Source of the DNA: Bacteroidota bacterium
Lineage (GTDB): Bacteria; Bacteroidota; Bacteroidia; AKYH767-A; 2013-40CM-41-45
Reading direction: 5' to 3'
Length of the DNA stretch: 64,000 nt
Assembly (NCBI GenBank): GCA_026391945.1
Contig: JAPLDA010000070.1
Span: 1-64,000, forward strand
Part shown: piece by piece, positions 48,989 to 49,969 of the stretch
Numbering within the stretch: position 1 is the first letter of the stretch
Layout: the number at the start of each line of letters is the position of its first letter
The notes under the pieces: model-generated
What the model saw: only the letters and a program-made list of their open reading frames with translations
Databases searched by the model: none
Told to the model about the DNA's origin: nothing
Position numbers and translations under genes: made by a program

Positions 48989-49339
48989 ATGAACAAACTT
49001 ATTCGCTTACCTGATGAACTCATCATCAGTAAAATTTATCTCATCCGCGGAATGAAGGTCATGATCGACCGTGATCTTGCTGAACTTTATGGTATCCAAT
49101 CAAGACGCTTACGGGAACAGGTAAAAAGAAATTTAAAGAGATTTCCGGAAAATTTCATGTTTCAATTAACCGGAACGGAAGTCGATTTCATGGTGTCGCA
49201 AATTGCGACACCCTCCAAAATGCACTTAGGAGGCCACCTGCCTTATGCTTTTACCGAGCACGGAATTCTTATGCTTGCGAATGTATTGATTGGAAATTGG
49301 AGGTCGCAAAATGCGACCTCCAATTTAGCAAATCTCTGA
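48989..49339 (+). CDS. ORF6N-domain protein, C-terminally truncated
   Basis: 116 residues. [20 protein letters not shown] then [33 protein letters not shown] identify the ORF6N (phage-type KilA-N-related) domain. Full-length relatives have a further helical tail (about 60-70 residues), which is missing: the frame ends soon after a perfect hairpin at 49294-49326. A second hairpin lies inside the gene. The paralogue immediately downstream shares the first 30 residues almost exactly, so this is a tandem pair. It sits inside the pyrimidine cluster without an obvious link. Confidence 0.8.
   Translation: MNKLIRLPDELIISKIYLIRGMKVMIDRDLAELYGIQSRRLREQVKRNLKRFPENFMFQLTGTEVDFMVSQIATPSKMHLGGHLPYAFTEHGILMLANVLIGNWRSQNATSNLANL
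49192..49212 (+). repeat. Palindrome inside the first ORF6N gene
   Basis: GGTGTCGCA (49192-49200), AAT, TGCGACACC (49204-49212): perfect 9-bp arms encoding VSQIAT, at the place where ORF6N proteins usually read LRSQFVTS. Confidence 0.9.
49294..49326 (+). repeat. 15-bp perfect hairpin at the truncated end of ORF6N copy 1
   Basis: Arms 49294-49308 and 49312-49326 (AAATTGGAGGTCGCA and its complement) around AAA, encoding NWRSQNATSN. It is close to the hairpin of copy 2 but at a different place in the protein. Confidence 0.93.
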
Positions 49340-49447
49340 ATTTCCCTGTTCGGCTGTGCACCGAACTATATTTATTTTTTTAAGACATCTTCCATTACCC
49401 TGTTGAATCATCCAACAGGTGAAACCTTTTAAAACTACTCCAACATC

Positions 49448-49969
49448 ATGAACAAACTTATTCGTTTACCCGATGAACTCATTGTCAGTAAAATTTATCT
49501 CCTGCGCGGAATGAAGGTCATGATCGATCGTGATCTTGCCGAATTATACGGAGTGGAAACCAAACGTCTCAAAGAGGCTGTCAAAAGGAATTTGGAAAGG
49601 TTCCCTGATGATTTTATGTTCGAAATGACTAAAGAGGAACTTGAGAATTGGAGGTCACAAAATGTGACCTCCAATTCCCTGAAAATGGGAATGCGTTACC
49701 TGCCCTATTGTTTTTCGGAACAGGGAGTCGCTATGCTTTCAAGTATACTGAAAAGCAGGTAAGCTATTGAAGTCAACATCCGGATCATCCGCATCTTTAC
49801 AAAAAGGAGAGAAGTGCTGTCCACTCATAAAGACATTTTATTGAAGCTCGAACAACTGGAACGGAAATCAGATAAATACGATACTGATATTCAAAACATA
49901 TTCAAGGTGCTCAAACAATTGCTGAATACTCCTCCACTACCACGAAAACGAATCGGGTTTAAATCTTGA
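49448..49969 (+). pseudogene. ORF6N-domain gene with in-frame stop
   Basis: The N-terminal part ([54 protein letters not shown]) is a normal ORF6N domain. Translation stops at TAA (49760-49762), but the frame continues at once with AIEVNIRIIRIFTKRREVL then THKDILLKLEQLER and ends PPLPRKRIGFKS at a TGA (49967-49969). This is the standard tail of the family, so a single nonsense change (for example AAA to TAA) has cut a gene of about 173 codons. A hairpin at 49645-49677 lies in the coding part. Read-through is the alternative. Confidence 0.88.
49645..49677 (+). repeat. 15-bp perfect hairpin in ORF6N copy 2
   Basis: Arms 49645-49659 and 49663-49677 (GAATTGGAGGTCACA and its complement) around AAA, encoding [10 protein letters not shown]. 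Relative to copy 1, the GTCGCA/TGCGAC step is GTCACA/TGTGAC: both arms changed together so pairing is kept. Confidence 0.93.

Follow-up and report, generated by a model that had tools for sequence, protein, structure and literature searches.

An intragenic palindrome of ORF6N genes as the predicted operator of the encoded protein

The window, that is, the whole stretch of DNA analysed here, comprises 64,000 nucleotides (positions 1 to 64,000) of contig JAPLDA010000070.1 from a Bacteroidota bacterium (assembly GCA_026391945.1). Two ORF6N genes lie in tandem in it and carry three palindromes (Table 1). Both copies passed the cut-off of the Pfam family PF10543 (27.8 bits): copy 1 scored 112.9 bits (E = 8.9e-33) and copy 2 scored 119.8 bits (E = 6e-35). 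In addition, both matched the PADLOC PDC-S05 models, with E-values of 5.2e-40 and 9.7e-45, respectively. Full-length ORF6N members are typically 150-230 aa long. As a sequence-only reading of this DNA had described, P2 (AAATTGGAGGTCGCA AAA TGCGACCTCCAATTT) and P3 (GAATTGGAGGTCACA AAA TGTGACCTCCAATTC) both consist of perfect 15-bp arms around an AAA loop. They differ by a single base pair per arm, and the step from GTCGCA/TGCGAC to GTCACA/TGTGAC alters both arms together and changes NAT into NVT, as the same reading had stated. P2 ends the shortened frame of copy 1, and P3 encodes WRSQNVTSN. P1 (GGTGTCGCAA A TTGCGACACC) has 10-bp arms and a single central base, and it occupies the codons VSQIAT of copy 1.

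Table 1. Features of the tandem ORF6N locus in the window.
Feature	Position	Strand	Remarks
ORF6N copy 1	48989..49339	+	116 aa; domain intact, usual C-terminal half missing
Copy 1 recognition helix SRRLREQVKR	49100..49129	+	Arg, Arg, Glu at model columns 35, 36, 39; placed from the AlphaFold model of homologue L040
P1	49192..49212	.	palindrome GGTGTCGCAAATTGCGACACC at the usual position of copy 1
P2	49294..49326	.	in the 3' end of copy 1; 122-154 nt upstream of the copy 2 ATG
ORF6N copy 2	49448..49762	+	104 aa; closed by an in-frame TAA at 49760-49762
Copy 2 recognition helix	49559..49588	+	Lys, Arg, Glu at model columns 35, 36, 39
P3	49645..49677	.	usual position in copy 2
Copy 2 post-stop remainder (C-terminal helical part)	49763..49969	+	same frame; intact relatives exist

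The ORF6N genes for comparison were gathered through homology, through unbiased whole-genome palindrome scans, and from plasmids. The sequence-only reading had proposed a search of such genes for palindromes at these codons and a check of arm covariation. A palindrome of about 27 bp was present at the same codons (model positions 67-69) in 188 of 200 distinct ORF6N genes, placing it inside the coding region, as expected of an intragenic operator. Counting bases from the palindrome centre as k, the base pairs k3-k13 were Watson-Crick in 86-99% of the 188 genes. At k11, all of G-C, T-A, A-T, and C-G were seen, and 179 of the 188 genes were paired, compared with 72 expected if the two sides were independent. 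Pairing dropped to background near the sixteenth pair, so the unit measures about 27-31 bp. Moreover, at this one place the palindrome was translated in either of two frames: frame A, RSQ(I/F)(A/V)T, in 165 genes, and frame B, V(A/T)NCD, in 22. Such palindromes are not due to chance: their density was 157 in 136 kb around ORF6N genes, versus 11 in 381 kb of flanking DNA. When the synonymous codons of the same genes were randomised, the mean best score was 4.5, compared with a real median of 11 at the genome loci; the scores vary with the choice of loop and mismatch penalties, and the contrast between real and random is large. Furthermore, 92 of 114 genome loci exceeded their own maximum of 60 randomised draws, and the ORF6N genes on virus or prophage contigs had a median score of 9, with 33 of 47 above their own randomised maximum. 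Palindromes also occurred in plasmid ORF6N genes of Legionella, Haliovirga, Sulfuricurvum, Treponema, Butyrivibrio, and Segatella; they were weaker in some, and some had other inner sequences, such as CTTGAGGTCGAAAATTTCGACCTCAAG. Statistical support was weaker among the plasmid genes of other groups, a small set in which only four of the seven tested exceeded their own codon null. The palindromes of these genes are a family-wide DNA-level element, and no published account of them was found in the literature searched.

The choice of synonymous codons followed the opposite arm closely. Thr codons (ACN) opposite G were ACC in 144 of 144 cases, though these genes often used ACT at other places. 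Ser codons (TCN) opposite G ended in C 78 times and in T once, and Leu codons opposite T ended in A in 34 cases and in G in 0. In addition, the Ser codons were TCG in 98/98 cases opposite C and TCA in 52/54 opposite T. The two loop orientations, AAATT and AATTT, were found 78 and 77 times inside genes. Judged from this codon usage, the constraint acts on DNA, not RNA, because the pairs are strictly Watson-Crick, even at sites where G.U would have been a free synonymous change. The suggestion of the sequence-only reading that selection acts at the DNA or RNA level is thus upheld for DNA, to which the two frames and the equal loop orientations also point, and fails for RNA, given the avoidance of G.U.

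Outside the genes, palindromes lay at one of two places, namely before the ORF6N start or some 530 nt past the start of the domain, which is about the position of the stop codon. The arms of inner and outer palindromes of one locus matched only modestly. The upstream palindrome was considered as a -33 promoter element and rejected in this role, as the -7 motif was rarely present between palindrome and start. Arrays of two to four palindromes, spaced 33-36 nt apart and differing in their arms, were seen in or near several ORF6N genes (L351, L347, L348, L349, L354, and L011). Furthermore, a Bacteroides ovatus plasmid (L422, 1288-1316) carries a related palindrome, GGAACTTATCACAGTTTGTGATAAGTTCC, between two site-specific integrase genes and upstream of an ORF6N gene.

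The bases of the palindrome were compared with the residues of the encoded protein. The AlphaFold model of homologue L040 (mean confidence 86) contains a helix-turn-helix and strands, and the second helix of the helix-turn-helix spans residues 33-42; model columns are L040 residue numbers plus one. Protein columns were compared with half-site bases by APC-corrected mutual information. The link of residue 39 with k4 had a z of 18.3, and the top columns were 39, 36, and 35, all of which lie in the recognition helix with the spacing of residues on one helix face. Residue 39 matched the base at k4 (Glu with G, Gln with A, and Arg with C) in 197 of 201 genes; the pattern-based searches admitted only loci with G or A at k4, which affects the frequencies and could not have created the link to residue 39. 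The rule was obeyed in 172 of 176 genes in frame A and in 24 of 24 in frame B, and both arms complied in 196; the genes are related and the sets overlap in origin, so these counts are not independent. A table trained on one gene set gave the correct k4 base for 80 of 82 genes of a held-out set, while the commonest base was correct for 24. Column 36 was also associated with k4, column 35 (Lys or other) with k7/k8, and column 43 with k3. Helices of this kind classically contact A through Gln and G through Lys or, on the other strand, through Arg.

The association was retained when relatedness was considered. A tree was built from short alignments that left out the helix and the palindrome; on it, residue 39 and k4 changed together on about 54 branches, the residue alone on 13, and the base alone on 9; columns outside the helix co-changed on 22 branches at most. 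When bases were permuted within protein clusters, column 39 had a z of 18.7, compared with at most 3.8 for columns 45-58, which lie between the helix and the palindrome and would reveal mere linkage. Moreover, seven genes without an internal palindrome (L031, L033, L034, L058, L082, L107, and L111) had one 56-69 nt upstream of the domain, and all seven of these obeyed the code of their own helix. Among external sites in general, 26 of 40 matched residue 39 of the nearest protein, and the extra sites beside genes with an internal palindrome fitted less often. Some external palindromes may serve paralogues or be relics. This strong coevolution of the palindrome with helix residues makes recognition by the gene's own product probable.

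In the window, the P1 half-site matched the helix of copy 1, with Glu39 corresponding to G at k4 and Arg35 to T at k8. The P2 half-site agreed with the helix of copy 2 at every tested position (Lys35 with GG and Glu39 with G) and fitted it better than that of copy 1; Lys35, Arg36, and Glu39 of copy 2 predict GGTCGC, which is exactly P2. The sequence-only reading had rightly placed a hairpin at the truncated 3' end of copy 1 and another palindrome at its usual site. P2 also lies upstream of copy 2, and P1 suiting copy 1 and P2 suiting copy 2 explains the odd placement. P3 had A at k4 in both arms, though Glu39 predicts G, and is one of the four violations of the rule among the 201 genes. Copy 2 has a premature stop, so selection on P3 may be relaxed. 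A third ORF6N gene of the same genome (contig 57, 38420-38632; locus L003 of G000) has its own imperfect palindrome, which obeys the residue-39 rule. What the sequence-only reading had overlooked is the probable reason for the palindrome, namely that its bases follow the recognition helix of the protein.

The palindrome is very probably the operator, that is, the predicted binding site, of the ORF6N protein that the surrounding gene encodes; the most likely consequence, held with some reserve, would be negative autoregulation. An ORF6N homodimer would read the two half-sites through its helix-turn-helix recognition helices, and a change in the helix would be followed by both half-sites. On this reading, both arms change together, and with them the encoded loop (RSQ-I/F-A/V-T or VANCD/VTNCD), because the half-sites track the helix. 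The protein segment that holds the loop has low model confidence and is probably flexible, and it would tolerate such change. The bound dimer, in the gene body or in the leader, would block transcription, and an internal operator could work behind whichever promoter a horizontally moved solitary gene meets. A position about 200 nt inside the gene is unusual for an operator. Operator 2 of E. coli purR is a palindromic operator for a gene product within its own reading frame, and the ORF6N site differs from it in being near-universal in the domain family, in two frames and several phyla, and in coevolving residue by residue with the helix. Likewise, the lac operator O2 is a palindromic operator in coding DNA, inside lacZ; however, lacZ does not encode the repressor, and the lac case is no family trait.

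It is also conceivable, though unlikely, that the ORF6N protein binds the palindrome mainly for a role other than autoregulation, such as marking the gene for recombination or copying, or titration of the protein in a phage response. The matches of ORF6N proteins to the candidate-defence models PDC-S05 and the enrichment of the palindrome core in virus contigs would suit such a role. However, no catalytic domain was recognised in ORF6N proteins, and no conserved partner gene was found in 110 loci, save a tyrosine recombinase in 11. The neighbours at these loci (L003-L114) were otherwise varied, with a ComM-like (Mg-chelatase-type) gene in seven. No experimental evidence for phage protection by PDC-S05 was found in the literature searched.

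In the IMG/VR virus contigs, the core GGTCRCAAWTTGYGACC had at least 120 matches, compared with 17 for a control with swapped inner bases (at least sevenfold), and many of the matches stem from a few related viruses. A second site type had only 14 matches versus 5 for its control. Most cores in the virus contigs (L161-L240) lay between genes; a T-run often came next, and sometimes a Bacteroidota -7 promoter motif. An ORF6N gene was found in none of 30 virus records with sites and, with a wider model, in none of 21, many of the records being fragments. The KilA-N, Bro-N, antirepressor, and Rha phage regulators are comparable systems: the best viral fold matches of ORF6N were of these kinds, namely KilA-N, antirepressor, and regulatory proteins, which also speaks for the operator reading. 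At the sequence level, L040 matched Phage_pRha (PF09669) weakly, with 20.7 bits and below the cut-off of 29.9, and a fold search of the PDB yielded nothing beyond weak winged-helix matches. The lead from viruses is a weak one. A tentative and decidedly improbable reading is that ORF6N proteins serve the host as regulators or as sensors of phage DNA, in which case a self-repressed protein could also bind incoming phage DNA or be titrated by it.

Template switching at replication alone might keep a chance palindrome perfect, by arm-to-arm copying and spacer inversion, with no function at all. Template switching is known to leave homogenised arms and inverted spacers (PMC8604942; also PMC8794818 and PMC6649704). 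In line with this, k4 underwent about 40 parsimony changes with only 3 intermediates in 158, and asymmetric palindromes recurred as exact reverse complements in related genes. The centre base also flipped often in close pairs; on the tree its rate was only about that of third codon positions and no higher, and rapid flipping was therefore rejected as proof of inversion. The outer paired positions k10-k13 are highly variable and show no clear partner in the helix, so they call for template switching or a further contact. However, template switching alone is very unlikely: it does not explain the confinement to ORF6N genes or the matching upstream palindrome in genes without an internal one, and it is hard to reconcile with the dependence of bases on the recognition helix, above all the rule linking residue 39 to k4. 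Coding perfect inverted repeats with arms that evolve together are known from mitochondria of Nematomorpha, where template switching is one proposed mechanism and no function or binding protein is known (PMC6649704); in ORF6N genes, by contrast, the bases follow the protein helix. Under the operator reading, replication template switching may, on suggestive evidence, help keep the arms identical and so supply paired mutations for selection by the protein.

The sequence-only reading had also offered the in-frame insertion of a small mobile palindromic element into ORF6N genes, and had asked whether the unit occurs elsewhere. Two unbiased scans bear on this, one of 61 relatives and one of 396 genomes drawn from the phylum, a few being shared. 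All 21 genomes among the 61 relatives that had the core pattern also had an ORF6N gene. Among 89 distinct sites, 63 lay inside the domain, 18 near it, and 8 elsewhere, two of which resembled ORF6N remnants; chance matches in the scanned sequence were estimated at about three, so sites elsewhere occur at roughly the chance rate. Rickettsia palindromic elements and REP-type repeats are likewise short palindromes found within protein-coding genes. They are, however, dispersed over many genes, whereas the ORF6N palindromes are confined to one family, with 81 of the 89 sites in or beside its genes, and have a protein-specific sequence. An element resembling those of Rickettsia could account for the variable positions (two frames, upstream, and downstream), the arrays at 33-44 nt spacing, and the few isolated copies, such as L141 and L142. 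Against it, the arms differ among the copies of one array. Moreover, in the clade closest to copy 2, palindrome-free genes (for example L031, L033, L034, and L111) have an unchanged loop length, so the palindrome need not be an insertion. Mobility of this kind is thus highly improbable. The isolated copies in L141 (2192-2230) and L142 (2030-2064) are long perfect palindromes of the same type, with arms of 19 and 17 bp, respectively; no ORF6N gene lies within the few kb fetched around them, and one is just past a stop codon and the other between convergent genes. No aligned empty site was found for either in the two genera searched.

A hairpin of RNA in the ORF6N mRNA, controlling translation or decay, would suit the location of the sites in the leader, in the coding region, and about the stop codon position, yet it is scarcely credible, since a cis-acting RNA hairpin would keep G.U as well as Watson-Crick pairs, the observed avoidance of G.U and the near-equal loop orientations argue against it, and the palindrome had no match in Rfam.

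ORF6N is a widespread, uncharacterised domain of several bacterial phyla and is listed as candidate phage defence. With an operator in the gene itself, one stretch of DNA would be both coding sequence and operator, and the protein loop, the operator, and the recognition helix would evolve together. If the product of each gene binds within that gene, the family's DNA specificity would be readable from sequence alone, and hundreds of natural variants would form a ready-made table of protein-DNA recognition.
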